Made by a program: the position numbers and the translations under genes
DNA from: Entophlyctis helioformis
Taxonomy: Eukaryota > Chytridiomycota > Chytridiomycetes > Chytridiales > Chytriomycetaceae
Assembly (NCBI GenBank): GCA_025526915.1
Contig: JAHLKH010000076.1
Coordinates: forward strand, 52,869 to 116,868
DNA: 64,000 nucleotides
Reading direction: 5' to 3'
Notes under the pieces: generated by a model
What the model was told of the DNA's origin: nothing
Database searches by the model: none
Seen by the model: the letters and a program-made list of their open reading frames with translations, nothing else
In this document: positions 1,365 to 54,971 of the stretch, piece after piece
Numbering within the stretch: position 1 is the stretch's first letter
Layout of the letters: each line of letters starts with the position of its first letter

Positions 1365-3110
1365 TCAATAGTCTTCAACCGTGAGGGTCATGCCAGCCTT
1401 GCGGAGACGTTCAATGAGGAGCATGCCCATGCTGGACGCTGTTGTAGCCACGCCGCCGGTGAGCGACTTGAAATTGCCCGTAGCAGGCGTGCCGATCTGT
1501 GCACGCTGGAGCGCGAGGCACATGGCGGCTTCCGAGACCATCTTGGCAGTCTCGCCGTAGCCAGGGTCAGACACGCCCTTGACAAGAGCCTTGGCCTTGA
1601 CCTGCTCGCCGGCATCCTGTCGATATGAGACGGGATGGTCAGGCACGCGCGTCTTTACAGTCACACAGCCCGCATCCTATCCGCCGATCCAACATACATT
1701 GCGCTGCGAGTATCCAACAATGTCGTACGAGAAGCGGCCGTTCTTGAGCGTGGCATCGGTCGGTCCGGTTCCAGGAGGCACAATCCTGCCGACGATCCAT
1801 CCAACAAACGGGATGACGAGCGACATGAAGGCAATCCAGACAGCGACCGCCTGGAACACGGCAAGAAGCAGGTTGCTCCACGCCTTGGTTTCCGTAACTC
1901 GGAAGACGGGGCCGTAGTTGTTGAACCAATTGGAGCGGCGCACAATACCCGAGTTGGGCAAGTCCATTGGCCAGAATGCCTGCCACGAGCCAAAATCACG
2001 GTCGTAGCGGATGAGCGTCGGGATGACCGTGAGCTTGTCCTTGGACTCGGGAACATGGAAGTTGCCGTTGGTGATCATGGGCACGAGCTCAGAGATGCGG
2101 TTGATCTTGAAAATGTCGCTCATGCTGGCAAGCGTGCCGCCTGAAATGCCGCCGACAAAGTCGTTGAGACTGATCTTGACGGTTTGAGTCTGGAGGCCCT
2201 TGGACGCGAAATGGTTTGCAACCCTGTGTGCACAATGTGAGCGCGTTGCATCAACAGAAGCGATTCGCATGTGCGGCTCACATGAACGTGCCGAGGTCCG
2301 AGGGGATCGAGTCGAAGCCGCAGCTGTTGACAATGAGCACGTTGTTCTTGACGGCCAGATCGTGGTACTTTTCGGCCATGGCCCGAATGAAATGAGGTTC
2401 GGCAGTCAGGTCGACGTAGTCGGTCTTGATGCGGACGCATGCGCTGACGAGCTTCTCGCCGTACTTGGCGTAGGGACCAACAGTGGTGATGACGACCTTG
2501 GCCTGAGCGACCATCTTGTCGAGCGAGTCTTGGCCGTTGGAGTCGGCGATGATGATGTCGGCCGACTCCTGCAAACAGCGGGCAGCAGAGTGTTCATGTC
2601 AGCGATGCAAGATCTGGCTGTGAGCAGTGGTGCTGCATGCACTCGACTCACAGAGATGCCGGTGCGTGCAGCCACACGGTCAAGGACCTGCTGGAGCTTG
2701 GCCTTGTTGCGGCCGCCGACAGCGAACTTGATGCCGTTGGCCTGGAGAGCGTGGAGTGGGAACCGAGCGAGGTTGCATGAAGACGATCGAGCGGACCAAG
2801 CCACACACACACAAGCCAAAGACGGCACAGACGATCCAGGTGGTGAGTCGCAGATGCTTGTGCGGCAGCACACAACCCAGTGATAGCCACGGCCCAAGCA
2901 GCCTCACTCACAGCGGCGTTGTTGGTCAGGTATTCGACGACGAGCGCACCGGTGAAGCCGGTTGCTCCCCTGAAGCAGCCGCATGCGCCACACGAGTCAG
3001 CACCATTGGCAGACAAGCATCAGGCGGACAGGATGCCAACAGAGCAGGTGGCGAGTGACGCACCAGACGACAATGTCATACGGGCGGGACGAGGTTGCGA
3101 CAGTGGACAT
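1365..3110 (-). CDS. Saccharopine dehydrogenase-like oxidoreductase (copy A)
   Basis: Six exons: 3110-3064, 2969-2912, 2741-2652, 2568-2282, 2223-1698 and 1616-1365. Each intron runs GT to AG and the lengths add to 1260 nt, giving 419 residues, close to the usual size of SCCPDH-like proteins (about 430). An N-terminal Rossmann fold carries the dinucleotide motif GATGFTG, split by the first intron. TVGPYAKYGE and CGFDSIPSDLG are typical family blocks. Near the C-terminus a hydrophobic stretch (VAVWIAFMSLVIPFVGWIVG) suggests membrane or lipid-droplet association, followed by VPPGTGP. This family is named for saccharopine dehydrogenase but mostly acts on other, poorly known (often lipid) substrates, so no lysine-pathway role is implied. 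First of three tandem minus-strand paralogues. Its 5' half is almost identical to copy B. Confidence 0.88.
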
Positions 3111-3150
3111 GATGAGGTCTCTTCGAGTTGAAGTCTTTGGCGGCAACCCA
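2238..3150. repeat. Near-identical duplicated tract, copy 1 (partner 4228-5140)
   Basis: About 910 bp covering the first four exons, the introns and the sequence just upstream of the start codon of oxidoreductase copy A. It matches 4228-5140 (offset 1990) with only scattered differences, introns included. Sequence outside the tract is far more diverged: the large exon, the last exon and the upstream region beyond about 3155. This is the pattern expected from recent gene conversion or partial duplication. Confidence 0.85.
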
Positions 3151-3331
3151 AGACCGTTGGTTGACGTGCGGGCAATCTACACGGGTCGCAACTGAAACTC
3201 CGCTTCAGATACCGATCGAGGACTCTGGTGGTCATGAAGCGTTCATTTCGCGATAAGATGCAATGAGAAGACAAGGGCGGGCGGATGGATGGCTGCACTG
3301 CTGAGAAAGTGTCAATGTGGTCGGTGGCATT

Positions 3332-5100
3332 TTAGAGGCTCTTGACCTCAAAGGTCATGCCAGCCTTGCGGAGACGCTCGACAAGGAGCATGCCCATGGT
3401 GGAGGCAGGCGTGGCAACACCACCTGTGACAGACTTGAATCTGCCGGTGGCCGAGGTGCCGATCTGAGCACGCTGGAGGGCGAGGCAGAGAGCAGACTCA
3501 GAGATCATCTTGGCAGTCTCGCCGTAGCCAGGGTCAGAGATGCCCTTGACCACAGCCTTGGCCTTGACCTGCTCGCCGGCATCCTGCTCATCCAAATCTC
3601 ATGGTGTGAGTTGGCTGATCGCTGTTGGGGGTCATCACGCATGGTAAGTGCAGCCACGCGCAACTCACGCTAAAGTGGGACTGGCCGACAAGGTGGACGG
3701 TAAAGCGGCCTTTCTTGATGGCGGCATCAGAGGGACCAGAGCCGGGAGGGAGAACCTTGCCGATGATCCAGCGAGTGATCGGGAACCAAATGAAGAAGAA
3801 GCCAGCGGAAATGGCAATCGTCGTGATAAGGGCAGCAAAGTAGTTGGAGCAGCGCATGCTCTCGGTGTACTGGAAGCCCTCGCCGTAGTTGTTGTACCAG
3901 TGGGAACGGTACACGTTGCGGATGTTGGCAGCTCCATGACACCGATCGTCTGCCAGGCGTTGAAGTCCTTGTCAAAGTCCATGATGACGGGCTTGGCGCG
4001 GACGATCTCCTTGGACTCGGGCACCGAGTAGTTGGCGTTTTGGCCAAGCGCAATGAGCTCCTTGCGGGGCACGGTGCTCATGATCTCAATGGCACTGCCG
4101 ATGGTACCACCAGAGATACCGCCAGACAAGCCAACGAGCGAGTACTTGACCGACTTGGTCTTGAGGCCCATGGCCGCAAAGTAGTCGGCGATGCTGTTAA
4201 AGTGCAAAGGGAGGTCGGTCAATAGACTGCAATGTGTGCATCGGCAGAAGCGATTCGCATGCGCGGCTCACATGAACGTGCCGAGGTCCGAGGGGATCGA
4301 GTCGAAGCCGCAGCTGTTGACAATGAGCACGTTGTTCTTGACGGCCAGATCGTGGTACTTTTCGGCCATGGCGCGGACAAACTGCGGCTCGCCGGTAAGG
4401 TCGACGTAGTCGGTCTTGATGCGGACGCAGGCGCTGACGAGCTTCTCGCCGTACTTGGCGTAGGGACCAACAGTGGTGATGACGACCTTGGCCTGAGCGA
4501 CCATCTTGTCGAGCGAGTCTTGGTCGTTGGAGTCGGCGATGATGATGTCGGCCGACTCCTGCAAACAGCGGGCAGCAGAGTGTTCATGTCAGCGATGCAA
4601 GATCTGGCTGTGAGCAGTGGTGCTGCATGCACTCGACTCACAGAGATGCCGGTGCGTGCAGCCACACGGTCAAGGACCTGCTGGAGCTTGGCCTTGTTGC
4701 GGCCGCCGACGGCGAACTTGATGCCGTTGGCCTGGAGAGCGTGGAGTGGGAACCGAGTGAGGCAGCATGAAGACGATCGAGCGGATCAAGCCACACACAC
4801 ACAAGCCAAAGACGGCACAGCCGATCCAGGTGGTGAGTCGCAGATGCTTGTGCGGCAGCACACAACCCAGCGATAGCCACGGCCCAAGCAGCCTCACTCA
4901 CAGCGGCGTTGTTGGTCAGGTATTCGACGACGAGCGCACCGGTGAAGCCGGTTGCTCCCCTGAAGCAGCCGCATGCGCCACACGAGTCAGCACCATTGGC
5001 AGGCAAGCATCAGGCGGACAGGATGCCAACAGAGCAGGTGGCGAGTGACGCACCAGACGACAATGTCATACGGGCGGGACGAGGTTGCGACGGTGGACAT
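3332..5100 (-). pseudogene. Saccharopine dehydrogenase-like oxidoreductase (copy B), one-base frameshift
   Basis: Same six-exon structure as copy A: 5100-5054, 4959-4902, 4731-4642, 4558-4272, 4193-3669 and 3583-3332. The parts add to 1259 nt, one short of copy A. The frame breaks near 3928-3930. Upstream the protein reads GVMELP; downstream the homologous sequence NVYRSHWYNNYG continues in another frame, consistent with one lost base after the proline codon (CTGCCAAC on the coding strand). I see no intron that would repair it. All other family features are present: GATGFTG, CGFDSIPSDLG, the hydrophobic stretch, VLPPGSGPSD and a normal stop. It is either a very young pseudogene or a base missing from the assembly. 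Introns 1-4 and exons 1-4 match copy A almost base for base. Confidence 0.8.
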
Positions 5101-5332: not shown

Positions 5333-6989
5333 TCAGGCGTCACTGACATCCATTTCGAATCCAGCATGCGCGAGGCGTCGAAGCAGCGTGGCGCCAAGAC
5401 CAGATGCCGCAGTAAGGATGCCGCCCTCGTGTGTCGGGAATGTGTTGCGGACAGGGTCGCGTAGACTGCTCTGCTCCAGAAGCAGACAGAATGCACTTTC
5501 GCCAAGGATAACGGCTGTGCCATAGTAGCCTGGATCTTGACCGAATCTGATCCTAGCCGAACACTTTTGAGACTGCATGTGTGACATTCCATGTCAGTGT
5601 ATGCATTGTGCACCATGCACAGCAAACCCACAGCCAGGATGATGACATGCGCGTACCTTGTCGCTCGACTCGCCAACAATCTTGACGTCAAGGCTGCCTG
5701 CCCGCATCGACTTTTCGCTGGGGCCAGTGCCTGGAGGGACAATGCGGCCAACCAGCCATCGCACAAGGCGCAGCTGCAGCAATGCAAACACGAGCGTCTG
5801 TCCAAACGCAGCGAGTGCGGCCATGAGCGCATTGCCGTGCGCCAGCGTTTCATAGAAAGAAAAGTTGGATCCGTATCCCAGCAGCGCGTTGGAGCGACGC
5901 GAGTAGCGCACGTTTCCGGGCGAGGGCATGAACCAGCTCTGCCACGCATTGAGATCCTCGTCAAAGTAGTAGGACGGCATCGTGGCCGGATGCTGGTTGT
6001 ACGTTGAGCTGTTAGCCGGCTCAAGGCAGTTGGGGTTGTCGTCAATGGCACGCAGAATGGACTTGTCCAGTGAGAGGGTCGTCGACAGCGAGTGGATCGT
6101 TCCACCAGAGATGCCAGACGCCTTGAGCTTGACGACAGAGTAGCGCACGGTGCCTGTCGTGAGGTTCTTTGCTTTGAGGTGTCTTGTGATGCTGCATAGC
6201 CAACCGCCCAAACAATGTCAGTCGCAAGCACGGCCAAGAGCTGCAGCGCTGAGACGGAAACACACAGGAATGCACCCAGATCAGGCAAGAATGCCTCGAA
6301 TGCGCAGCTGGGCAGCACGACTGTCTTGCTGGCAACGGCTCGGTCGTGCAGCGTGTCGATCAGCTTGCGGATAAAGTGCGTCTCGCCCGTGCAGTCCAAG
6401 TAGTGTGTGCTGTGGCGAATGCATGCCTCGACGATCGACGGCCCATGCTCCCAGAACGGACCGACGGTTGAGATGAGCACGCGGGTGCTGGCTGCCAAAG
6501 CATCGATGGATGCATTGTCGCCGCCCTCTGCAATGATGATGCCAAGCGTGCTCTGCAGGCGATGTCAGATCTCGCCGCACGATAAGCTCCGACATTGCTG
6601 AGCATGTCATCCATATACCTTGATGTCTGGGTTGAGCTGGATAAGACGCTGGCGGACAGCCTCGAGCTTCTGCTCGTTGCGGCCAGCGATGGCGAGCCGC
6701 AGGTTCTGCTGCAATCAAGGCAGTGAGTATCCCATGCACAGTGGTCAGCCCAGAGAACGCTGCAGGTGCCGCGCCAGATGACCGACCTTTGGCCAGTGCT
6801 CGGCGAGATAAGCTGCCGTCACACCGCCAGTAAAGCCAGTTGCACCACTGCACACACACACACACACAGAGGCAGAGAGAGGCAGAGAGAGGCAGATGGC
6901 ATGGCTTGCGTAAGACGGGTGTGGTGTGCAACACAGTGCCTGCCATGCGCCACTCACAGAACGGCAATGTCAAAGGACTTCGACGCCAT
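5333..6989 (-). CDS. Saccharopine dehydrogenase-like oxidoreductase (copy C)
   Basis: Third tandem paralogue, more diverged but with the same intron positions: exons 6989-6958, 6847-6787, 6708-6619, 6552-6266, 6191-5657 and 5572-5333. They total 1245 nt, or 414 residues, in one open frame. The start MASKSFDIAVL leads straight into GATGFTGG, the dinucleotide-binding loop, as in copies A and B. STVGPFWEHG, LDCTGETHFI and LPDLGAF are the matching family blocks, and a hydrophobic segment precedes VPPGTGPSE. The C-terminal exon (GYYGTAVILGESAFCLLLEQ) is the least conserved part. The first intron holds a CA-dinucleotide run and short GGCAGAGA repeats. One donor is GTCGGT, weaker than the others. 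Substrate unknown. Confidence 0.85.
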
Positions 6990-9900
6990 TTCCGGTTTGT
7001 CCGTCAACCTGGGCCCGATATTGATACAATTACCAAGGATTTTGGAGTTAAATTCGACCAGAGAGGCGACGGATGCAAGCCCACATATCACGTGATTGAA
7101 GGTTCGAGTCAGCAACGAGCATGCGACGACAGGCGGGCGAGGCACATCCAACAAGCATCTCACCTTCTATTGAAGTGACCCGTTAGGTCGATCGGGAGGT
7201 GCCCCGATTCAAAGTGTTGTTGTTGGCAGACATGGCAGCATGATCTGATCCCATGAGGCCACATGCGACTTGAAGGGAAGCAGATCAGGTGACGGAGGCT
7301 GCTGGACGACAGGCTGATCAGGCGGTGTCGCGAGCAGCATGATGTGATGTTGTGCACGCCGCTGGATGTCATGATGAGTTGCCTCAATGTCTGCAAGGTA
7401 CTCTTGCGTGGCTGGATTGCTGTCAGGTGGCGTGTGCGTCAAGTAGAGCGGTCGTTGTCCATAGAGCAGATGCCACAGTGCGACCATCCCGATGTTGGTG
7501 GCTCCAAGAACGTCTCGGTGGTAGACGGTCTTGCAGTCTGTGCACTCGTAGCGTCGCAGGTTGGTGCGGTTCTTGTCTGGGATCCGCTGCTTGCACTGCG
7601 GGCACATCTGGCTGGTCAGGTTCTCGTTGCAGCGGTAGATCTGTGTGTGTGTGGTGCATGATCGTGTGGTCAGTTGGTGCACAGATGGATGGATGGCATC
7701 AGACGCACATAGGCATATCCAGACGACCGCAGATGCCTGATGAGAAACTTCTCAAACACAGCGTGCCGGCCACCTTGGCCTGTAAAGTCGATGCCAAATG
7801 CCCACACAACGGGAATGTTGTCCTTTGCCGGCTTTGTTCGGTCGACAGGGAGGCCTTGAGATGCATCGGATGCACGCTCTCCAGTCTTTGATCCTGCCAG
7901 CTTCATGATGCCCTCAAGAGCGTTTCCGCGATCAGACGTGCTGTTGCTGCGCATGGTGAACCGCTTGGCCTTGACCTTCTGTGGAATGCCATGCCATGCC
8001 ATGCCATGCCATGCAGCACGATCAGCAGGCAATCAAGCAGCATGGCGGTCATGTCAATGGGCATCCAGAAACAGAGAAAACGTACCTGTGCATTCAGGAA
8101 TGGCGTGCAGTACGCATGGCAGCGCAGATCCCAAAAGGCTCTCTCGCCAGGCTTGACGTTTGGATTGGCATGCTTTGCTGTCTTGAATGCAATCGCCTTG
8201 TGGATGTCGGCTGCCTTGGCATATCGATTGTTGAGCCTGGCACAAGAGACAGGCACTGTGAGTTGATCTGGTCAAGAGTGCGCGTGGCAGAGTCATTGCA
8301 TGCATACCACCGCTGAAGGCTGTGCTCGGCTCGTGCCATGCCAGAGGAGAGCACGTAGTTGGACTCGAGGGTATAGGTGAAGGTTGCCAGATCGACCAGC
8401 ATGCTGGACGCGCCATACATGTACCGCTCGCCCCAATCAATGCCGACAATACGCACAAACCGGTAGCCCTTGTTGGTGAACAACTTGTTGGCTTTGACAA
8501 TGTTGAGCAATCGCTGCGAGGTGTAGAAGCTGAGCTTGCCCTGTCATGCCATGACATGAGTGAGGAATGTGCAATGCATGTGCACCAATGCGCGAGTTTA
8601 GCATGCAAGTGACTTACAGGATTGGTCGCTTTTGGCTTGGTGGCTGATGGGTCGGCAGGATTGGCGGCTGTGGATGGCATGTCAGTCGGTGTGGACAACA
8701 AGTGCGCGTCTGGATTGGCACAGCAACTCACATTCGCCATCCAAGTGATCATGCCCATCATCAGCCTCATCGTCATCATCATCAGAATCATCATCATTGT
8801 CAGGCATGCCATCAGCAAGGCTGGGCTGCTCGCCTAAAGATGCCATGTTGGAGCATGCAGATCAAGGCGGCAGTCAGAACCAATGTGTGCACCAAAGCAT
8901 TCAAGCACGCCACATACTGCGAGGCGACTCTGGACGGTCTGTGCGATAGTCCAGCGCCAGCTGAAAGATGCTGTATCCGTCCGTCCGGAAGCTGCCCACC
9001 GCGGTCGGTTTGCTTGGAATTGCAGGAGGAAGACCATCGATCACGGCGTCTATAAACTCCTGGCGCTCCTTGTCAACCAGACCCTTGTGCTCAGCCAGTT
9101 GCATCGCATCAGCAATGACTGCGTCATTTGCTTGGACCTGCTCAAACACCTCCTTGTCGGCCTCGTCTGGCGTCTGATAGCGGCCTTTCTTGGGGCGGAG
9201 GCCGGGAAGGAGTATGTTGAGGATACAGAGCTCCTTGCTATTGCTGAACGCCTTCTTGATCGTCGTGTTGGATGACGCGAGGCCCAAGCTGGCTTTTTGG
9301 TAGTCTTGGATAAAAGTGCAGTGTCAGCATCATATCATGTAGACATGGCATAAACAGGCAGTGCGACCTACTGAGTACAGCAAGGAGCTGCAGTCGCAAG
9401 TATGCCAAAGCAGCACTTTGCTCGCCACGGATGCGATCATCACTACTCCCCATCACCGCCCAAAAGAGCGTTGTCTCGGTGATGAGGATGAAGGGATCGC
9501 GGCTGGCTGCTTGCGGGCACAGCTTGTTTGTTGTGCCAGCAAGCTTGGACAGCTCGTAAAAGATCACGATCTCTGACCGAGACACATCAGGCACAAGCGT
9601 CTTGAGCTCGTGCAGCTCTTGCGGGACTGTATCAATACCGCTGTCCTCAGTGGCTGAGGAAGAGCTGGATGCCGCGTCCTTGGTGGTGGCTGCCTTCCTG
9701 CCCCGTCGCTTCTTGGGCCTGCCGCCCTTGTTGGCTGACGAAGAGGTGGACCGGCCCCGCTTGAGACTTGAGGTGGGAGGAGCAGTGTCCAAAGTGGCCA
9801 GCGGTGTGGCGTCCTTGATTGCTGGTGGTGTAGCGTCCTTGGCAGCCTTGGCAGCAGCAGCCTTGGCGGTCTTGAAAAGTGCCGCAATCCACACTCTCAC

Positions 9901-10195
9901 ATCCTCAATGGATGCACTGGGCATCATCTTGAGGGCTGCAGTGACGGCCAGCTCAGACTGGCTAGAGATGTAGTGCCGCGCGAGCATGCCACACACATCC
10001 CTGGCCAGATTGCTGTAAATGTCATGCCTTGCATCCGTGCAAAGGCTGCCATCAAGCCTGTAGGGCAAGACAGCCTCCATAGTGCCCGCGTGCACAGCGT
10101 CTGCCGTCTGTGCACTTGTGTGCATCAAGGCCGACAGCTCTGCATCTGCCTGCACCACGGCTGACAGGATCGCGTCGGCCTGGATTGTCACCGTC

Positions 10196-10340
10196 AATCA
10201 ACGATCTTAGCTCAGGTAGGGAGGGATCAGACCGCAATAAGATAGCTTAATTCTATGGAAAGAACGCAAGAGCCACAACGCGAAGCCACAGATCCCAGTC
10301 ACGTGATCTTGGCTGCGGAATACAACGAGAAGCGTTGATA
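10196..10340 (-). repeat. 145-bp LTR (3' copy) of the non-autonomous element
   Basis: Direct repeat of 12925-13069 with about three mismatches. Its outer ends form a short inverted repeat (ATCAACG / CGTTGAT). It contains one CACGTG hexamer. Confidence 0.8.
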
Positions 10341-10634
10341 CCTCCTTTTCCTGGGTGCCGTGGAACCAACCGAGACATATTTCGGCAACGGACTGCCGAT
10401 GAGGTGACCACAACAAGACGCGGTAGAGGCTTTGGAGGAGACGGCTGGCTAGAAGCGACGGGTATAACGGCCCGGACGGACGCGGCAGACGTGCAGACCA
10501 AGAGACGGAATGGATAGAATGGCCAGAATGGACACAACCAGGAGATTGGTACGGGTAGAGTGGACGCGATGGAAGAGCCAGGAGATCGAAAGAAGAGATT
10601 GTGGTGGACCAGGAGGATGCAGCGTGGCGTGGCG

Positions 10635-11120
10635 TTACGCGGTGGAATGAGACGGTGTGACATGGCGCAGAGCGACGTGGCGCGACAAGACGGACGCGTC
10701 GGAAGAGGCCAGAGACGGAGAGCCGAGACGAGAGGAAGACTGGAAGTGCACAGCGTGTGGAACGACGCCAAGTACAATGGATAGCAGCACGGCCGGCGTC
10801 GCCTTGTCTGGCGTGAGGATTGCGACCTTGTACTCGCTCTGGGGGTCTGCCGCGACGCGCACCAACGCGTTGCCACGGCCTGTCCTTGGTAGTGGGCTCG
10901 CAGCATCCATGGAGATCTGCTGGAACGGTACTTGGGCGTGCACCACGGGACATGAGCGGCGTGGACACTTGATGACGGAGCTCAGCGTCCTTGTGTGCCA
11001 GGCTCCAGAAGTGGACTCTACTCTTGCCACTCCGACGGCCGAGGCGTTGAGGAGCGACCAACTGCCGTGCGGCAACACGCAGACTCGGTGGAGGATGATG
11101 GTATGCGATCTGTTGCCCAT
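10635..11120 (-). pseudogene. Decayed integrase-like stretch within the non-autonomous element
   Basis: Open frame of 161 codons on the element's coding strand. The segment PFQQISMDAASPLPRTGRG followed by NALVRVA resembles the start of a retroviral-type integrase core, where an Asp sits in a similar hydrophobic strand. No further catalytic Asp/Glu pair can be placed, and the neighbouring frames are broken. This is a guess from one motif; it could be chance. Confidence 0.3.
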
Positions 11121-11234
11121 TGCAGGTCGTGAGTTGGAGTATGTGACATGACGGATGGACTATGGGACACGGCCTGGTGCACAGCCAGGGAGGATGGGCT
11201 GGCAGGAGGAACATGATGTGATGGAAGGACTGTC

Positions 11235-12083
11235 ACATGACGGGCGCCACCCGCGACAGCAGGCCGTGAGTAGATCAATCCCGTGGTCCTGCCTTGGCAA
11301 TGCCACGCATAGCCGACCAGCGGTATGGTGCGTGTGGGACGACCCCACATCGCCACCCTAATACCGGGCGGGAGTGACCGGCGCACAAGTCAATCCCATG
11401 GTCCTGCATTGGCACGCGCCAACACAGCCGACCAGCGGTATGGTGCGTGTGAGGATTCCACATCTGACACCCTAATACCGACGCGGGGGTGACCGGCGCA
11501 CGAATCAATCCCGTGGTCCTGCCTTGGCACTGCCACGCATAGCCGACCGGTGGCAGGGTGTGTGGGAGGATTCCACATCGACACCCTACAGCGACGCGGG
11601 ATGACCGCAACACGCCGCCTGCTGCCCAGGGGTCGCAGATTGTGCACAGTGGAGGAGACGGTGTGGTATGGAGAGTGCCATGACGCGCGCCACCCGCGAC
11701 AGCAGGCCGTGAGTAGATCAATCGCGTGGTCCTGCCTTGGTAATGCCACGCATAGCCGACCAGCGGTATGGTGCGTGTGGGACGACCCCACATCGCCACC
11801 CTAATACCGGGCGGGAGTGACCGGCGCACAAGTCAATCCCGTGGTCCTGCATTGGCACGCGCCAACACAGCCGACCAGCGGCAAGGTGCGTGTGAGGATT
11901 CCACATCTTACACCCTATACCGACGCGGGGGTGACCGGCGCACGAATCAATCCCGTGGTCCTGCCTTGGCACTGCCACGCATAGCCGACCAGCGATATGG
12001 TGCGTGTGAGGATTCCACATCTTACACCCTATACCGACGCGCGGGATGACCGCAACACGCCGCCTGCTGCCCAGGGGTGGCAG
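11235..12083. repeat. 115-bp tandem repeats in a higher-order duplication
   Basis: Monomers of about 115 bp are recognised by the shared start CAATCCCGTGGTCCTGC, at about 11276, 11391, 11506, 11717, 11834 and 11948. Three monomers plus a spacer form a unit of about 445 bp. Its leader (GCCACCCGCGACAGCAGGCC) occurs at about 11245 and 11690, so the whole block is duplicated. It lies inside the non-autonomous LTR element. Confidence 0.8.
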
Positions 12084-12924
12084 ATCGCGAGGGGCGACGG
12101 AGGTATGGGACGTGGAAGCAACAACAGTAGACGGAAGGCGGTACCAGAGACAGAGACTGTAACAGAGCACAGGCAGATGCACGGCGAACCCACTACTTAA
12201 CGGGGAATTGCGGACAAGAGACCGTCGTCTGTGCGAGTGTTGCTGAGGCTGGCCAAGATCCGATGAGCCTGCTGACGCGGCTGACGGCATGCCGATCTGG
12301 GCGAACGAGGCATGGTATGGTGGCATGATGTGCGGGAGCGTGGGGTGACGGCTTGGTGACACTGGTGGTCGGCAATCCATGCGACCGAGGAGGGATCACA
12401 GAGACCGCGCTGCTGCGTGGCGGCCGGGAGTGAGGGACGGAATCATGCGCATTGGCGAACGCATTCGTGGATAGGATGTGACATCCATGCGAGCTGTGCG
12501 AGGCAGACCGTGACGGCCAGTGCCTTTGTTGACACCGTGACGGGCAGGCCGACCTGCGTGGCAGGGCCTGGGAGGAGGCTATATGGGAGCGGAGCAGGAA
12601 TATGGCCGTGAGGCGTGTCTGGGTGGCACGGTGGCACAGCGGCATGCCAGAGGCAGCGGGGCAGACCGACGAGAACCATATCACACTTATCTTTTGGCAG
12701 CAGCAGCCACATGGCACGGCTGAGCAGGGAGGACGACGGCGGCACCGATGGGAACACATGTCTGGCCGCTCTGACAGGGACAACTTGCTATGCGATGGCG
12801 GGAGGGCGAGGGAGCATACCGTCCACCGCAAGAGAGGCCAACGGACACAAGCAATCGCTACTCGGGCGGCCTGGAGATGGCCTTGGCTGCGGGTCGTATC
12901 AATAGGATTCCGAGAAGTCGGACC

Positions 12925-13069
12925 AATCAACGATCTTAGCTCAGGTAAGGAGGGATCAGACCACAAGAAGATAGCTTAATTCTATGGAAAGAACGCAAGA
13001 GCCACAACGCGAAGCCACAGATCCCAGTCACGTGATCTTGGCTGCGGAATACAACGAGAAGCGTTGATA
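12925..13069 (-). repeat. 145-bp LTR (5' copy) of the non-autonomous element
   Basis: Direct repeat of 10196-10340, same length and orientation. Because the element lies on the minus strand, this is its 5' end. The Fanzor reading frame runs a few codons into it and then stops. Confidence 0.8.
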
Positions 13070-15476
13070 CGTCTGCTGCGTCGCGTCCATCATGTCGACA
13101 TCCATCATGGCTGCTCGCATCGTGTCCATCTGTGCCATGTCCATCATGGCTGCTTGCCGCGCGTCTTTCTGGAACGTGTCGCTGTGTGCCGTGGCCGCCT
13201 GCTGCATTGCATCAATCAGTGACATGTCCATCAGCATTGTGCACGTCTGCATCATGTCCATCCGTACCGTGTCATCCTGCAGCTTGGCTGCGTTGGTTTG
13301 CAGCACCCTCCGCGTCCAGGTGCGATGGATCATCATTTGCATGACTGTAACGATCCAGGAGTGGATGGCATGCTTGGTCGCTTGCGGCTGCACCATCATG
13401 CTGTCCGCCAGGACATAGCCAAGATGGCGCAGCAGCATGTCCACAGCACCGCCTCCACCTGATATACTGCTGGTGAGGGCCGTAAGCAGCTCATTTGCTG
13501 ATGGAACTGCTGCTGCTGGTGGTGGTGGTGGTGGTGGTAGTGGCGGTTGGACGGCTGAAGATGAAGCGCCGGTGCTGCTGGCTGCTGTCGGCTGATTGTG
13601 CACATCATGCTCGTCCTGGATGCATGGGTCGTCAGGCTGCACAGGCAGCTCGTGCTCGTCCTGATCGTCCTGCTCGTCCTGCTCGTCCTGATTGTCGTGC
13701 TCGTCCTGCTCGTCCTGATCGTCGAGGTTGCCATGCATGTTGGGTTGCTTGGCAATCTTGGCAGTATCAAAGGCGCAGATCTTGAGAGCCGTGTCACTCT
13801 CGAGAGTCACCAAGCTGCCATAGCGAGGGATGTTTGTGTCGCTGCTGTGCGGACCGGTGCCGTACATGTGCCAAACAATGATGCCCTGCTTGTGAATGCA
13901 TCCACCTGACAAGAGCGTCGCGCTCTCGTCCTCATCAAAGTCCTCCGGGTTGACATAGTAATACTGCGTCAGCTTGCCTTGGCTTGCCTCCAGGACACAG
14001 TACTCCAGAGGCAGTGGCACGTCTGCATCCAGCTTGACCAGATCCGCGACCATGGCGCCGATCAAGGCAAGGGCAGCACGCCACAAGCCGGCCGTGAAAT
14101 AGTAGACTGTGAGGGTGGTGTCGTGGCTGATTGAACTGGGTGTCTGCTCGGCGAGTGGTGTCTTGGTTTGGGGCCCAAAAAACTTGGTGTTTGCGAGATC
14201 GCATGACTGCATCTCCTGCATACCACACAAGTCAGCATCCACAAAGCCAAGCAAACAGAGCAGCATGCCGATCAAACCCCATACCGCCATTTTGACAATC
14301 TGCTCAGGGCGGCTGTGTGCATTGCCTTTAGGTCTTGGCTGTCCTTTGGGATGGGTGGCCGCGGCAAGTGTCATGACTGGCATCGCAATCATGCGGCCGA
14401 GCTTTGCAAGCTTCTGACGAGTTGCCACTCGACTGCCAGCAACCCATCTGTGGCATGACACACGTGTCAGCAAGCACATTCAAGGCACATGACATGCCAT
14501 ATGTCGCGTACGCCTGCTTCTTGCCAACAGTTCCAGCCTTGCGAGCACGCAGGCCTGACTTCTTCTTGTTCTCTCTGATGATCTCCTGTAGTGTGGCCTT
14601 CTCTTTTTTCTTGGCACGCTCCTTTGTGTGTGCAGCCCGCTTGGCTGCCGTGAATTGGAATGGCGCCTGTGACGGTTGGATGCAGCATCAGGCGGCCATT
14701 CCAAGTGCACCAAACACAGCCACAATCGCCAATGGTGCACCAAACTCACCGTCGTCTCAGTGTCGGCAAGATCGCCAACGGGAAAGGTCTTGGAGCATGC
14801 CAGTGCTGCGAAGATGTTGTTGGACAACCGTGGTGGCTTGGGCGGCGGTGGAGGAGGACCAGCCTGTGGAGTGGGATGGTGAGCAATCGCGCCAAATCAT
14901 TCCATGCACATGCAGTCAGTGGAAGTCGAGACGCACTGCAGTTTGCTCAATGATGGACTGGAGCAGAGCGACGGCCTTTTGGCGCTGATTGATGAGTGTC
15001 GGCGGTTTGGCGTTTTCTGGATGTGGACCTATGGGGTGCTCCAGGAAATACAGCCAGGCTGAGGCCTTGTCGTGGATGGCAGCGACAATGGATCGCGGTG
15101 CAACTCGCGTGGTCATCCTGCCGTGGTACTTGACTTTCTGCGTCTCTGTGTCCAGTACTATGCATTCAACACAAATGGATCTGTGAGTGGATGCTGTTGA
15201 ATCATTTCAATGCAATCAACACCTACTGGGAGTGGATGTATGCCGGTGGGATGCGCATGGCGGATTGGCAATCTTGTCCAGCTGTGTCTGCATTCTCATT
15301 GCTGCGTTCTGTCCAGAAGCAATGGATCAAGTCAGCCGCATTCAAAATCAGCAAATGCACGTGGTGTGATAGCAACAGCATGCATTCAAGCCATGCAAAC
15401 ATACCAATGCGCGATAGATTGGCTCATCTGCTGGGAGGAGCTTAAAAATGCCATCTGCTCCAAGAAACTGCTCGCT

Positions 15477-15744
15477 TGTAGCACTGGGCCTCCAGGCGGA
15501 CTTGCCGGCTGGTCTCGGGGCAGTGAGTATGCACGCAGGGGAACGGCGGGCAGACGACTACTTCATTGGGAGGCAGCACAGACCTGGTCTCGGGGCAGTG
15601 AGTATGCACGCAGGGGAACGGCAGGCAGACGACTGCAAGAACGGGGGAAACCAGAGCGGCCAGTGCGGCCCGACAATGTCTGTCCGGTCACGTGGGTCAC
15701 GTGGATCACGTGGATCACGTGACCGCGACCGAGCATCCGTTACA
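15477..15744 (+). mobile_element. Solo LTR (LTR-B) in the 5' part of the Fanzor gene
   Basis: Starts TGTAGCACTGGG and ends CATCCGTTACA, flanked by a perfect 5-bp duplication TCGCT (15472-15476 and 15745-15749). It matches the LTR at 22955-23204 but is 18 bp longer, mostly from extra copies of a GTCACGTGGAT-type motif. Removing it with one duplication copy joins the Fanzor coding sequence in frame (QIAS then EQFLGAD). Confidence 0.88.
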
Positions 15745-15935
15745 TCGCTGGCAATCTGCAGCAGCTGGGCACTTGCTGCTTTGCAGATGGCCGCCAGGAT
15801 GTCGCGACGCGTGACAGCATCGTAGCTGCTCGCAAGGCGGTTGACTGTGCACCTGATGATGGTGTCGAGTGCCACATGGCAACCCTTCACCTCACTGAAG
15901 GCAGCATCCAACCGCCTGTTGCCAACAGTGCTGCT

Positions 15936-16127
15936 GTGTAAGCCGCGGCACCAGCCACGCGACCCGCCATTGCCATTTGCCTGCTACGCGCAATGCCATC
16001 TTCCCCAGCTGCTCTCTAAGAGCCCCACTGCAGGTAGATCCCGAGCCCACTCTGCTCCATGCAACCAATGAATCTAAGAGCCCCACTGCAGTGTTACCTG
16101 CCAGTCCACCGCTATACCTCACAGGGC
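15936..16127. other. Intergenic remnant left of the Ty3 nest
   Basis: No convincing gene. A 19-bp sequence (TCTAAGAGCCCCACTGCAG) occurs twice, at 16015-16033 and 16073-16091. The minus-strand frame here stays open into the Fanzor 5' exon but shows no clear start codon. Its right edge is where a truncated retrotransposon begins, so the original 5' end of the Fanzor gene may have been lost. Confidence 0.5.
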
Positions 16128-16201: not shown

Positions 16202-16452
16202 TGTAGTACTGGGCCGCCAGACGGACTTGCCGGCTGGTCTCTCGGGTCAGTATGTGTGCACGCGAGGAAGGGCGGGCAGACGACTCTTCATTGGGAGGCA
16301 GCACAGACCTGGTCTCTCGGGTCAGTATGTGTGCACGCGAGGAAGGGCGGGCAGACGACTGTAAGAACGGGGGAAACCAGAGCGGCCAGTGCGGCCCGAC
16401 AATGTCTGTCCGGTCACGTGGATCACGTGACCGCGACCGAGCATCCGTTACA
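16202..16452 (-). repeat. 3' LTR of Ty3 element 1 (251 bp)
   Basis: On the plus strand it begins TGTAGTACTGGG and ends CATCCGTTACA. It contains an internal direct repeat of about 85 bp (the CTCTCGGGTCAGTATGTGTG block occurs twice) and a GTCACGTGGATCACGTGAC palindrome near its end. Confidence 0.88.
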
Positions 16453-16505: not shown

Positions 16506-18335
16506 CTAAGAGGATGCATGGGCGTTGCACACACGAGAGGCAGAAGTGCGGGCAACGATGGACGCGTAGGACACAGGACGGGGAACCGTGCGCTCAGAGC
16601 GACGAGGTGGGGCGGGATGGTTGAGAGGGGGAAGAGAAGAGAGAGAGAAGGAAGGAGGAGAAGAGGGAGGAGGGAGAGGAGGGAAAGATGGAGAGAGAGA
16701 GGGAGACGCGGGTGCAGCAGGTGTGATCGGCTCGTCAGCCGGAGCAGGTGCCGCAGGCGTGGCTGCTGCTGGAGCAGGGGCCACTGGTGCAGGAGCAGGC
16801 GCCGTGCGCTTGCGGCGAGAGGACTTGGATGCCTTGGGCTGCGTGGGAGCAGGCGCCGCGGCTGGAACAGGAGCAGCCAGTGCAGGAGCAGCCGGAGCAG
16901 GAGCCGCGTGCGGGGGCTGAGCCGGTTTGGATGCCTTGCCTTTAGGCGCCTTGGACGGCCGAGCGTGGAATGCCTTGACGAGGTCCTGGGCCTTGCGCAT
17001 GTCCGCGGCTGGGACCCATGTGTTGTCGTCGGCTGGATAGCCAACCCACTTGACCAGATACTCGATCTTGCCGCGATAAGTGCGCGAGTCGACGATCTGC
17101 TCGACCTCGTAGTTGTCCGACGTGCCGTCGTCGGCATGGTACTCGGGGTCAGGCCGGGAGGGCACATCCTTGCGGCCGGTGGGCGCAGACAGAGGGTCAA
17201 CATACGGGCAGATCCGGTCGGCATGGAACACGTTGTGGACGCGGTGCAGCGAGGCAGGCAGCGCGAGCGTGTAGTTGAGGCCAGATTCACCAGAGTCCAG
17301 GCTGGTGATGGCAAAAGGGCCAAGCCACTTGGCGGCCGTGAGCGGCGGGCGGTGCGAGTCCGCCGGCCAGGAGATGCCCTCAGCGTTGAGGAGCACCATG
17401 TCGCCGACCTTGTACGCAGGGTGGCGGCGGCGACGCTTGTTTGCCTGAACGGCCATAGCTGCCTGAGCTTTGCGCCGATTCAAAATGGCCGAGTCGCGGG
17501 CAGCGGCCATGTCCAGCAGCAGGTCGCGGGCCGCGGCAGACGGTGCCAGGGCCGGCTCAGACGGGAAGGACCGCGGGTGGCGGCCAAACGCCAGGAAGAA
17601 AGGTGCAAAGCCAGACGAAGCCGACGGCGCGCAGTTGAGGCCAAAGCAGGTGGGACCGAGCAGCAGCGGCCAGTCAGAGCCGTGGTAATCGGCCGCCTTG
17701 GCGAGCGCATCCTTGATGGTGCGGATGCTGCGTTCGGCCAAGCCGTCAGTCTGCTGGTGGCGAGCCGTGCTGAGGTTCTGCTTGATCCGGGCAGCGGTGC
17801 AGAGGCTCGACCAGAAGGCCGACAGCCAGCGGGCGTCGCGGTCCGAGACGATGTCGACTGGGAAGCCCTTGCCCGAGCAGACCCAGCGAGTCAGGAAGAG
17901 CTCGGCCAGCTCCTGGGCCGACGACGAGCGGCGGCACGGGAACGCGTCGCAGAGGCCGGACAGGCGATCGACCACAACCAGAGCAGCATCAAACGCATCG
18001 TCTTGTCCGCCCGTGGGCAGGAACATGACGTCCATGGCGACGCTCGAGAAGCAGTCGTCCGGGATCGCGAGTGGATGCAGCAGGCCGTCAGGCCGGTGGT
18101 TGGGCGTGCGGTGGCGCTGGCACACGTCGCATGAGGCGACATAGGCAGCAATGTCCTCAGACATTCTGGGCCAGAAGTACCGGTTCGACAAGCGGCTGGT
18201 GGTCCGCTGACGTCCCTGGTGCGCACCAAAGGGAGAGTCGTGGTAGTGGGCGAGCAGATCCGCGCGCAGAGACTGCGGCACATACAAGCGGTTGCCTTTG
18301 TACCACCACGCACCATCCAAGCACTCCATGTGCAC
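16506..18335 (-). CDS. Ty3 element 1 integrase with C-terminal chromodomain
   Basis: 609 codons. The zinc-binding HHCC region (HYHDSPFGAHQG, then CDVCQRH) is followed by the DDE core: Asp in VAMDVMF, Asp in DIVSDRDARW and Glu in TDGLAERSIR. A GPY-like region and a chromodomain follow (YEVEQIVDSRTYRGK, YLVKWVGYPADDNTW), which in chromoviruses directs insertion to particular chromatin. A Pro/Ala-rich tail ends close to the 3' LTR. The frame is offset from that of RNase H. The integrase frame upstream of 18335 (WLEGDPSSATPAD) overlaps the end of the RNase H frame, so a base was probably lost between about 18340 and 18420. Confidence 0.92.
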   Translation of the reverse strand: MHMECLDGAWWYKGNRLYVPQSLRADLLAHYHDSPFGAHQGRQRTTSRLSNRYFWPRMSEDIAAYVASCDVCQRHRTPNHRPDGLLHPLAIPDDCFSSVAMDVMFLPTGGQDDAFDAALVVVDRLSGLCDAFPCRRSSSAQELAELFLTRWVCSGKGFPVDIVSDRDARWLSAFWSSLCTAARIKQNLSTARHQQTDGLAERSIRTIKDALAKAADYHGSDWPLLLGPTCFGLNCAPSASSGFAPFFLAFGRHPRSFPSEPALAPSAAARDLLLDMAAARDSAILNRRKAQAAMAVQANKRRRRHPAYKVGDMVLLNAEGISWPADSHRPPLTAAKWLGPFAITSLDSGESGLNYTLALPASLHRVHNVFHADRICPYVDPLSAPTGRKDVPSRPDPEYHADDGTSDNYEVEQIVDSRTYRGKIEYLVKWVGYPADDNTWVPAADMRKAQDLVKAFHARPSKAPKGKASKPAQPPHAAPAPAAPALAAPVPAAAPAPTQPKASKSSRRKRTAPAPAPVAPAPAAATPAAPAPADEPITPAAPASPSLSPSFPPLPPPSSPPSFSLSSLPPLNHPAPPRRSERTVPRPVSYASIVARTSASRVCNAHASS

Positions 18336-19849
18336 TACGACCTTGCGGTCGGCCGGCGTGGCTGACGACGGGTCGCCTTCCAGCCAGGCAGTCTGGAGGC
18401 GAATGGGTCGGCCGGCAACGCCGCACGCACGTCTTTCGCCCAGTCAGAGTCAGTGCGCAGATTGGCAGCACGGATCGGGACAGGCGAGCGACAGTTTGTG
18501 CAGAGAGGGGCCTTTGAGGGATCGCGGGACAGCAGATCGGCCAGCGAGTTGAGCTCGCCAGGCACGTACTCGATGGATGTATCAAACTCCTGCAGAGACA
18601 GGACCCATCGAGCCTGCCGATCCGACAGGTGGGGCTGCGTGGCCAACCAGACCAGCGCCTTGTGGTCAGTGTGCGTGACAGAGCGCACACTGGACAGTAG
18701 ATGACGGAAACGCGAGAAGAACTCCACGATGGCGAGCAACTCGCGTTCGTGGGTTGGATAGTTCATCTCGGCTGGGCTAAGCTTACGTGACCAGCAGGCC
18801 ACCAGCTTCTCGCCATCTGGGTGGATCTGCGACAGGTAGCCGGCAATGACGTAGTTGCTGGCATCAGTGTAGACATGCGTTTCCAGAGCCGGGTCAAAGA
18901 ACCGCAGCTCGGTAGCCTTCAACACTGCCTGTCGCAGGTCCTCCACAGCCTGCTTTTGAGCAGGGCCCCATTCCCACTTGGCATTCTTGGCTAGTAGCTT
19001 GTATAGTGGCAGACACATGGTGGCGTACGCCTTTGCAGGGTTCGGCCCACCAATGAATGACTTTAGCCACACAAGCTTACCTAGCCAAGTTGCCAGAGTG
19101 GACGTGTTTGAGATGTGGGGGGCTGCTGCCATGTCCTGCAAGTGCTTTGGCGCAATGGAATAACCAGTGGGCGAGAGCACGTGACCACAGAACTCAATGT
19201 CCTGCTGCAGGATCATGCACTTGGACGGCTTAATGTACAATTGAGCCTCCAGTAGCAGCTTGAGAACAGTGCGTAGGTGTTCGATATGCTCCTCGTACGT
19301 CGCGCTGTAGATGTAGATGTCGTCCATGTACACCGAGACGCACGTGCCCAGCAGCTCATTGAGCGTCGACTGGATGGCCTGTGTAAACACCGCCGGAGCA
19401 TTGGTCAGCCCGAAAGGCATGACCGTGAACTCAAAGTGACCAAACTGGGTGGAGAACGCAGTTTTCCACTGGTCCTCCGCCTTAACACGAATGTTAAGGA
19501 AGCCCTCGCGGATGTCAAGCATCGAGCGGAAGGGTTTGTTTGCCAAGTTATCACGGAGGGTCTCAATCTCCGGGATCGCACTGTGGAACTTCACCGAGAT
19601 GTTGTTCAAGCCGCGGTAGTCAATGACCAACCGCAGCGAACCATCCTTCTTGCGGACAAAGAGCGTGCCGGCGCCCAAAGGCGATGACGAGCGGCGGATG
19701 TAACCTTTGGTGTACCACTCGTCCAGCTGCTTCTTGAGCGCTACGGATGCATCCTGGTTCAGTCTCTTGAGGCCACGACGCGGCGGCAGCTGCGCATCCT
19801 TAATGAAAGGGATCGCGATTGTTAGATTATCGTCTGTTGGCTTTTCCAA
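18335..19849 (-). CDS. Ty3 element 1 reverse transcriptase and RNase H
   Basis: Copies element RNA into DNA. Reverse transcriptase motifs are LRLVIDYRGLNN, FRSMLDIREGF, MPFGLTNAP and the catalytic SVYMDDIYIYS. RNase H follows with VYTDASN, HERELLA, THTDHKALVW and LADLLSRD. The first codons of the open frame lie in the inserted small LTR. The true coding sequence continues into the protease frame on the other side of that insertion at 20002. Confidence 0.93.
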   Translation of the reverse strand: MEKPTDDNLTIAIPFIKDAQLPPRRGLKRLNQDASVALKKQLDEWYTKGYIRRSSSPLGAGTLFVRKKDGSLRLVIDYRGLNNISVKFHSAIPEIETLRDNLANKPFRSMLDIREGFLNIRVKAEDQWKTAFSTQFGHFEFTVMPFGLTNAPAVFTQAIQSTLNELLGTCVSVYMDDIYIYSATYEEHIEHLRTVLKLLLEAQLYIKPSKCMILQQDIEFCGHVLSPTGYSIAPKHLQDMAAAPHISNTSTLATWLGKLVWLKSFIGGPNPAKAYATMCLPLYKLLAKNAKWEWGPAQKQAVEDLRQAVLKATELRFFDPALETHVYTDASNYVIAGYLSQIHPDGEKLVACWSRKLSPAEMNYPTHERELLAIVEFFSRFRHLLSSVRSVTHTDHKALVWLATQPHLSDRQARWVLSLQEFDTSIEYVPGELNSLADLLSRDPSKAPLCTNCRSPVPIRAANLRTDSDWAKDVRAALPADPFASRLPGWKATRRQPRRPTARS

Positions 19850-54700: not shown

Positions 54701-54971
54701 CTACCGCATCTCGGTCGTCACCGACCAGACCGAGTCGCCCAAGGTCAAGGAAATCATCAAGACCATGATCCCCGGTGCCAACCTCGAGGACGACTCGGCC
54801 GGTGCCCTCATCTACCAGTTCCCATCGTCGTCCACCAGCTCGATCCCCGAGTTTGTCAAGTGGCTCGAGCAGAACAAGGACGGCCTTGTCAAGTCCTGGG
54901 GTATCTCGCAGTCGACGCTCGAGGAGGTCTTCCTCAAGCTCATCCGCGAGGCCAACAACAAGTTCCAGTAA
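51721..54971 (+). CDS. Half-size ABCA-type ABC transporter (different subfamily)
   Basis: Two exons (51721-51861 and 52410-54971) give 900 residues. The first exon, MSKNTDAVQVESGKPD to WRNTVLQ, is followed by a 548-bp intron with CCTGCCCC repeats. Exon 2 holds the first helix (LAPFIFQLLIFVLQ), an extracellular domain of about 200 residues, then helices including GPVFFFCSEMIIFINVLSQI and AILIGIFIFIIGLLFESFVF. The ATPase domain follows: Walker A LLGQNGAGKST, signature YSGGMKRR, Walker B IIFMDEPTTGMDP and TTHSMEEADVLGDR. The tail ends STLEEVFLKLIREANNKFQ. It differs clearly from copies 1 and 2 (GQNGAGKST against GPNGAGKTT), so it is an older paralogue despite sharing the promoter repeat. Strong C-ending codon bias suggests high expression. 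Confidence 0.93.

Follow-up and report, generated by a model that had tools for sequence, protein, structure and literature searches.

Structure and catalytic motifs of the Fanzor-type gene

The window analyzed here is a 64-kb stretch (C76:52869-116868) from the genome of the chytrid Entophlyctis helioformis (29.6 Mb, 482 contigs). It contains, on the minus strand, a gene for a Fanzor-type protein located at the right end of a transposon. The spliced Fanzor frame (window positions 10194-7209; 8 exons, 815 amino acids) has zero internal stops and ends with a stop codon at 7209-7211. It is composed of the following features:

9372..10191, minus strand: exon with a REC-like region (a domain label inferred from position) and a basic patch (KRGR..KKRRGRK, about 9690-9766)
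8918..9304, minus strand: exon with a TDG motif (codons 8976-8984) like that described for the Fanzor1 WED domain
8732..8833, minus strand: exon with an Asp-rich stretch
8618..8667, minus strand: Fanzor exon
8308..8540, minus strand: Fanzor exon with RuvC-I (GIDWGE)
8436..8438, minus strand: RuvC-I Asp codon
8237..8307, minus strand: 71-nt intron; the 20 nt at its 3' end resemble a frameshift, and QRW/LNNRY is the junction used in the annotated sister proteins P0008, P0010 and P0013
8086..8236, minus strand: Fanzor exon
7709..7978, minus strand: Fanzor exon, with FGIDF and no Glu at the canonical RuvC-II site
7209..7640, minus strand: last exon, with the shifted catalytic Glu, TNB zinc finger, RuvC-III, variable tail and stop
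7623..7625, minus strand: shifted (alternative) RuvC-II Glu codon, six residues before CPQC
7533..7604, minus strand: four-cysteine zinc finger CPQC..CTDC, matched by PF07282
7512..7514, minus strand: RuvC-III Asp codon (HRD)

The Cas12f1-like TNB domain PF07282 (OrfB_Zn_ribbon/TNB) was detected both in the spliced protein (E-value 6.6e-11; 42.6 bits vs a cut-off of 26.3) and in the single open reading frame 7209-7682 (1.7e-10), by the kind of profile search that the initial annotation of this locus had proposed. The NCBIfam model guided_TnpB also matched over the finger (7.4e-7), under that model's own cut-off. The motifs read in the protein are VGIDWGE, CNENLTS, CPQC/CTDC and HRDVLG. The protein matches the published pattern ExxxxxxCxxCx(12,18)CxxCx(4,8)D, as well as the Fanzor pattern D-X(125,275)-[TS][TS]xx-C4-X(5,50)-RD (PMC3627910). 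The initial annotation, which had placed a Fanzor-type protein with these exons on the minus strand, is borne out by the domain match and by both patterns.

The rearranged Glu in CNENLTS and the four-cysteine finger were both found as initially described. The Glu is located six residues before CPQC (ENLTSQMC), and in Fanzors this residue is reported at that distance from the finger rather than ~50 upstream (PMC10711439). The TDG motif, typical of the Fanzor1 WED domain (PMC10711439), reads FRTDGYSIF in the window, MTDG in two divergent copies, and RTDG, MTDG or KTDG in annotated proteins. Of the catalytic positions claimed to be complete, both Asp residues and the shifted Glu are in place, but RuvC-I carries an atypical DWG instead of DPG. 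The same DWG is present in 7 of 10 other loci (the motif being unreadable in the other 3) and in annotated proteins P0009 and P0014-P0017. In Fanzors, RuvC-I is near exclusively DPG, and Ealt proteins with DPhiG form a clade apart from them (PMC10711439). We use the label Fanzor-type and assign no clade, because DWG is present but the source describes DPG only as near exclusive.

One point counts against the Fanzor assignment: the Fanzor-typical DPG is replaced by DWG. The gene model is a predicted one. We chose the splice sites mostly from frame and motifs, and for one of them annotated sister proteins give support. Between RuvC-I and the next exon, a 20-nt mini-intron (8256-8237) or a frameshift was dismissed because these sister proteins use the 71-nt intron 8307-8237. 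A chance match or a host gene was dismissed given the 150 TNB copies, the terminal repeats and the target duplications described below. The sequence recurs in sister copies at 91-95% identity. The window gene is a Fanzor-type RuvC/TNB protein with a catalytic core predicted at the sequence level.

Upstream continuation and truncation of the window copy

In the initial annotation, the gene ended at 10195 and contained acidic DQDE and Met/Asp repeats within 7209..10195. Position 10195 proved to be the edge of an insertion (13069-10196, duplication GACG), and the repeats lie outside that interval, at 13.07-13.73 kb. With two retroelement-like insertions left out, the frame continues from 10191 through a middle region to 15936. 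The resulting frame 15936-7209 comprises 1,527 codons with the final stop only, and 13 introns of 64-107 nt, all GT..AG. The upstream features are as follows:

7012..15936, minus strand: FEN-Fanzor transposon remnant with an intact right end; the left part (FEN half, left repeat) is missing
15745..15936, minus strand: 5' part of a split exon; the element is truncated at 15936; overlap with annotated protein P0001 at the C-terminal end of the latter
15477..15744, unstranded: solo-LTR-like (long terminal repeat) insertion of 268 bp (TG..CA) with a 5-bp duplication
15405..15476, minus strand: 3' part of the exon split by this insertion, with one copy of the 5-bp duplication
15227..15308, minus strand: exon
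14937..15157, minus strand: exon
14750..14863, minus strand: exon, proline-rich
14512..14666, minus strand: exon, basic (KERAKKKEK)
14285..14447, minus strand: exon
13070..14215, minus strand: middle-region exon with a domain of unknown type, DQDE acidic repeats (13653-13724) and Met/Asp repeats (13073-13154)
10196..13069, unstranded: insertion of 2.87 kb with terminal direct repeats of ~150 bp (12924-13073 and 10195-10344; 97%) and the 4-bp duplication GACG

The larger insertion is absent from the six sister copies read at this position. It carries a 115-bp tandem array (11275-12052) and no recognized gene, and looks like a miniature LTR element. The smaller one is absent from 5 of 6 sister copies, the sixth (C58) being rearranged there; related repeats occur at 16202-16429. 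The predicted model of the middle domain has a pLDDT (predicted local distance difference test) of 45.2, and a transmembrane-like segment in this region is most likely intron read-through.

Sister copies align with the window up to 15936 on the upstream side, where the window copy is truncated: its FEN half, start and left repeat are missing. The upstream break of the gene noted initially is thereby confirmed, and the word intact applies, at the sequence level, to the Fanzor core only, since the N-terminal half has been lost from this copy. The very long N-terminal region noted earlier is likewise real, but it had not been recognized as the remnant of a ~2,000-aa FEN-bearing transposon protein. 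Upstream of the truncated element are Ty3/gypsy-type pol pieces (reverse transcriptase, RNase H, integrase zinc finger, chromodomain; 16506-19849, minus strand), and the segment 16202-19819 is matched at 96% on contig C58. Because the FEN half and the start are missing, the window copy is not expected to work by the mechanism proposed below, even if it has kept an intact Fanzor frame and right end.

FEN/Exo1-like nuclease domain and its probable fusion to the Fanzor part

Upstream of the position equivalent to 15936, sister copies encode a nuclease domain. It forms part of the annotated protein P0001 (520 amino acids), which continues into the region where the window remnant starts. Among nine members compared at the FEN1 metal-binding positions, six Asp residues are invariant (9/9), and a Glu before Ala-Asp is found in 8/9. 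All 17 Foldseek matches of the predicted FEN model at E ≤ 1e-3 are 5'-nucleases. Sequence profiles barely detect the domain: XPG_I_2 matches 4 of the 9 members (best E 0.0013). A comparison of the domain with NCBIfam gave nothing relevant. The assignment has to be set against the low quality of the predicted model (mean pLDDT 49.5; only 86 of 520 residues reach 70), the lack of a relevant match among PDB sequences, and the lack of an XPG profile match for the first FEN member. A FEN fold of the N-terminal domain is well supported by the model comparison, although not proven.

The genomic arrangement of the two nuclease parts was assessed by a TNB profile search (205 candidates, 150 scored) and a search with the first FEN exon (152 candidates, 150 scored). 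At least 150 TNB matches exceed the Pfam cut-off, all those scored passing it, and 146 of the scored FEN candidates are matches, down to about 27% identity. A FEN exon lies upstream on the same strand within 15 kb for 71 of the 150 TNB matches, and at 6.1-6.6 kb for 49 of these 71. In the controls, FEN was found downstream for 1/150 and upstream on the other strand for 5/150. An exon-chaining script with a free start recovered the order FEN, middle region, Fanzor in two divergent copies.

Several observations weigh against a single reading frame across the element. In copy C172, the chaining script failed to reach the FEN part, and in copy C24 it was set to start at FEN. None of the annotated proteins extends from FEN to Fanzor. 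In the scored lists, 79 of the 150 TNB and 74 of the 146 FEN matches lack a partner, which may reflect contig ends, decayed copies and unscored partners. Many matches to the second FEN exon hold stops, some of which coincide with an intron of P0001. The FEN-like protein and the Fanzor could accordingly be products of two adjacent genes of one element, the middle region belonging to either. The short annotated models, the failure in C172 and a possible internal start codon just ahead of the middle region would fit this arrangement, which we consider unlikely but the most serious competitor: once the GT..AG introns are removed the frame 15936-7209 has no stop, P0001 extends from FEN into the middle region, exon chaining links FEN with Fanzor in two divergent copies, and the FEN-TNB spacing is conserved. 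One fused polypeptide of FEN, middle and Fanzor parts is therefore the reading we retain; as judged from the sequences it is well supported, not proven. Its full length is estimated at about 2,000 amino acids by summing P0001 and the window remnant.

Transposon ends, copies and selection

The right end of the element has the following features in the window:

7012..7034, minus strand: right terminal inverted repeat GGTAATTGTATCAATATCGGGCC, matching the left repeat of other copies
7012..7208, minus strand: conserved non-coding block between the stop codon and the end of the element, a candidate guide-RNA scaffold

The left end in sister copies bears an inverted repeat of the right end (GGCCCGGTTCTCATACC). 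The element is a ~9-kb transposon with terminal inverted repeats (TIRs; GGCCCG..) and 8-bp target duplications. A search for the repeat pattern with up to 2 mismatches found 214 ends in the genome vs 0 for the reversed pattern used as the control. A DNA search with window 6950-10194 (320 candidates, 40 scored, 56 matching pieces) revealed 17 other copies (L010-L026) with 91-95% identity over >3 kb, further partial copies, and a subfamily at about 77% identity. At the right end, 24 of 28 matching sister copies stop at 7012 or at most 2 bases off and 4 stop slightly earlier; one further locus has no match there.

The flanks past the right end differ among copies, apart from a few that share them. 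A common right flank (CACGACGTCC..) is found in L016, L018, L022 and L025, and shared flanks likewise occur in L019/L030 and L027/L028; this suggests segmental duplication, allelic contigs or insertion into another repeat. Target duplications were analyzed in nine copies with both ends read. Exact 8-bp duplications are present in four, and a 7/8 match in two, which count as one event because of their identical flanks. The remaining three have no target duplication, and C172 (L039:259-273) shows a 15-bp match at both ends together with a damaged left repeat; these cases do not fit the 8-bp rule. A 15-bp duplication was seen in none of the nine copies.

Pairing of ends within 22 kb, for 100 listed ends among the 214, gave 23 pairs. 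All 23 contain a FEN exon and 18 a scored TNB match, while 2 of the other 5 (C24, C60) carry Fanzor by DNA match. With the listed ends counted one by one, FEN is found within 4 kb of 38/46 left ends, and a scored TNB match within 1.5 kb of 38/54 right ends. Two deletion derivatives of ~1 kb, L007 (C35:164489-165478) and L062 (C109:11838-12881), share an inner breakpoint and have each its own target duplication, one 7/8 and one exact. Both still have the left repeat, along with the TNB exon and right-end block, and so were probably mobilized in trans.

Relative to the window reading, dN/dS (the ratio of nonsynonymous to synonymous substitution rates) is 0.34-0.81 in 29 copies, all below 1, with six diverged copies in this set covered to about half. 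The Fanzor part is free of stops and frame-breaking gaps in only 5 of the 29 (L011, L015, L017, L020, L030), which counts against the favored reading of the element. The genome contains a large expansion of a TIR transposon with one recognizable gene. With its TIRs and 8-bp duplications, the element belongs, as Fanzor1 carriers do, to eukaryotic DNA transposons and not to IS607.

Transposase and mobility

No transposase was recognized in the element pieces scanned; a sub-threshold Integrase_1 match lies in one Fanzor exon (E 0.016, 15.6 bits vs a cut-off of 23). Exon-by-exon domain searches of the genome covered the MULE, IS1595/Merlin, KDZ and hAT families. They gave 0 matches for MULE and IS1595/Merlin and 4 matches on 3 contigs for KDZ; the hAT search had no working control. 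These results, together with the presence of FEN in every pair of listed ends, would be expected if the FEN-Fanzor protein were the mobilizing machinery itself, with no DDE transposase and with spread by RNA-guided cutting, FEN processing and copy repair. We regard this as improbable: short inverted repeats, 8-bp duplications and ~1-kb deletion derivatives resemble ordinary cut-and-paste transposition, only some transposase families were searched, and the Integrase_1 match, albeit sub-threshold, points the other way. Excision of the FEN-Fanzor element is probably performed by a transposase acting in trans.

Right-end block as a candidate guide-RNA source

In studied cases, Fanzor guide RNAs derive from the 3' end region of the element, according to the papers cited here for Fanzor. 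The right-end block (~200 nt) is complete in 37 of 40 loci, partial in 2 and missing in 1, and 33 copies were aligned; the stretch from the finger to the element end varies from 459 to 707 nt among copies. A guide RNA from this block is possible by analogy with the studied cases. Two results fail to support a structured RNA. The block folds no better than shuffled sequences (z 0.19), and covariation is weak, with 3 double-change pairs vs a shuffled mean of 2.0, a value reached in 42/500 shuffles, for a structure that was picked by eye and in which one of four helices is paired in just 69% of cells. An RNA structure of the block is therefore unsupported.

About 22 bp beyond the element's right end, a neighboring minus-strand gene has its likely start codon (6989); the first exon of this gene (MASKSFDIAVL) appears by eye to be saccharopine-dehydrogenase-like. 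Given this closeness, a right-end RNA of the window copy would bear the 5' end of the neighboring gene as its guide.

The lack of support for a guide-RNA fold and the replacement of DPG by DWG would both be explained if the Fanzor half had lost RNA guidance and served only as a DNA-binding or structural part. There is little to recommend this, since all families readable at these sites retain the catalytic motifs and the zinc finger, dN/dS is below 1, and the right-end block is strongly conserved. A catalytic, guided role of the Fanzor half remains our preferred reading.

Other features of the window

No known RNA families and no tRNAs were found in the 64-kb window. ABC transporter domains (PF00005) are encoded on the plus strand at 6-1253 and 52332-54971, the latter region also having PF12698 and an ABCA1-like R1 match under the cut-off. 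Several repeats at 1386-4536, located 1.97-1.99 kb apart and 77-95% identical, suggest tandem gene duplication.

Comparison with known systems

The window protein as a query had no match in the protein database, in a search that needs shared words and that distant relatives could escape. Profile searches for FEN and Fanzor, which have the same dependence and could likewise miss distant relatives elsewhere, matched 7 and 10 proteins, respectively, all from E. helioformis. No viral relatives were found with either profile. Against PDB sequences, the Fanzor profile matched no Fanzor; the sole related entry was LaTranC (E 0.48), a TnpB/Cas12 relative.

The N-terminal domain resembles the FEN1/Exo1/XPG/GEN1 5'-nuclease superfamily in predicted fold and metal-binding carboxylates, but differs in being very divergent in sequence, transposon-borne and joined to a Fanzor. 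Academ elements are also DNA transposons with an XPG-type nuclease; however, they have a transposase and 3-4-bp duplications, whereas here no transposase was recognized in the pieces scanned and the duplications are 8 bp long.

Fanzor1, exemplified by SPu-1 of Spizellomyces punctatus (SpuFz1; PMC3627910, PMC10432273, PMC11423790), shares with the present protein the RuvC with a shifted Glu, the C4 finger, RD and TDG, as well as a location inside a eukaryotic TIR transposon with many copies per genome. Its proteins are mostly of 600-700 amino acids, some reaching ~800 (PMC11423790, PMC10711439), in contrast to ~2,000 amino acids with a FEN-like nuclease here, and they have DPG where DWG is found here. 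Fanzor1 occurs in several transposon superfamilies in up to hundreds of copies (PMC3627910, PMC10711439), and therefore copy number alone is not new. The repeats and 8-bp duplication fit no element described in section 12 of PMC3627910. The viral Mariner PGv-1 likewise combines Fanzor1 with a second nuclease, but as separate proteins, with a GIY-YIG fold and a Mariner transposase (PMC3627910). Searches of the open-licence literature found no report of a FEN-Fanzor fusion and, among the titles listed, none on Fanzors for E. helioformis and none on Academ elements. As far as these searches reach, novelty lies in the FEN-Fanzor fusion, in DWG and in the repeat family.

Proposed function and significance

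We consider it probable that the window holds the 3' remnant of a TIR transposon whose one recognizable gene, for a protein of ~2,000 aa, joins a FEN/Exo1-like nuclease, a middle region and a Fanzor-type nuclease. The most likely mechanism, an inferred one, would include the following steps: (i) the element is excised, probably by a transposase acting in trans, (ii) a guide RNA is made from the 3' end of the transcript, which starts at the stop codon, crosses the right repeat and reaches into the flank, (iii) with this guide the Fanzor half cleaves the corresponding empty site, be it the one that excision leaves behind or the one on the sister chromosome, (iv) 5' ends or flaps are trimmed by the FEN half tethered to it, and (v) repair from the element-bearing template copies the element back.

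A bolder version is a speculative one to which we give little weight: a transposase-free family in which one ~2,000-aa protein with RNA-guided and structure-specific centers excises or copies its own TIR element, originating from the capture of a DPhiG/Ealt TnpB separate from the known Fanzors. If true, this would be RNA-guided homing of a new and self-contained kind in a eukaryote. That the element has a standard Fanzor1 whose N-terminal extension is unusual and resembles FEN by chance is very improbable: sequence profiles scarcely detect FEN, but the carboxylates are invariant and the Foldseek matches are wholly 5'-nucleases.

For genome editing, the fused FEN-Fanzor protein would set a precedent, found in nature, for coupling a guided nuclease to one that processes ends. 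In a protein that combines a Fanzor with a nuclease acting on 5' flaps or resecting ends, RNA-guided cutting is linked to the repair step that follows; this suggests a role of Fanzors in steering the repair of breaks toward copying the element back. The many similar copies in E. helioformis, some of them with an intact Fanzor part, and the tiny deletion derivatives would make such steering of repair testable.

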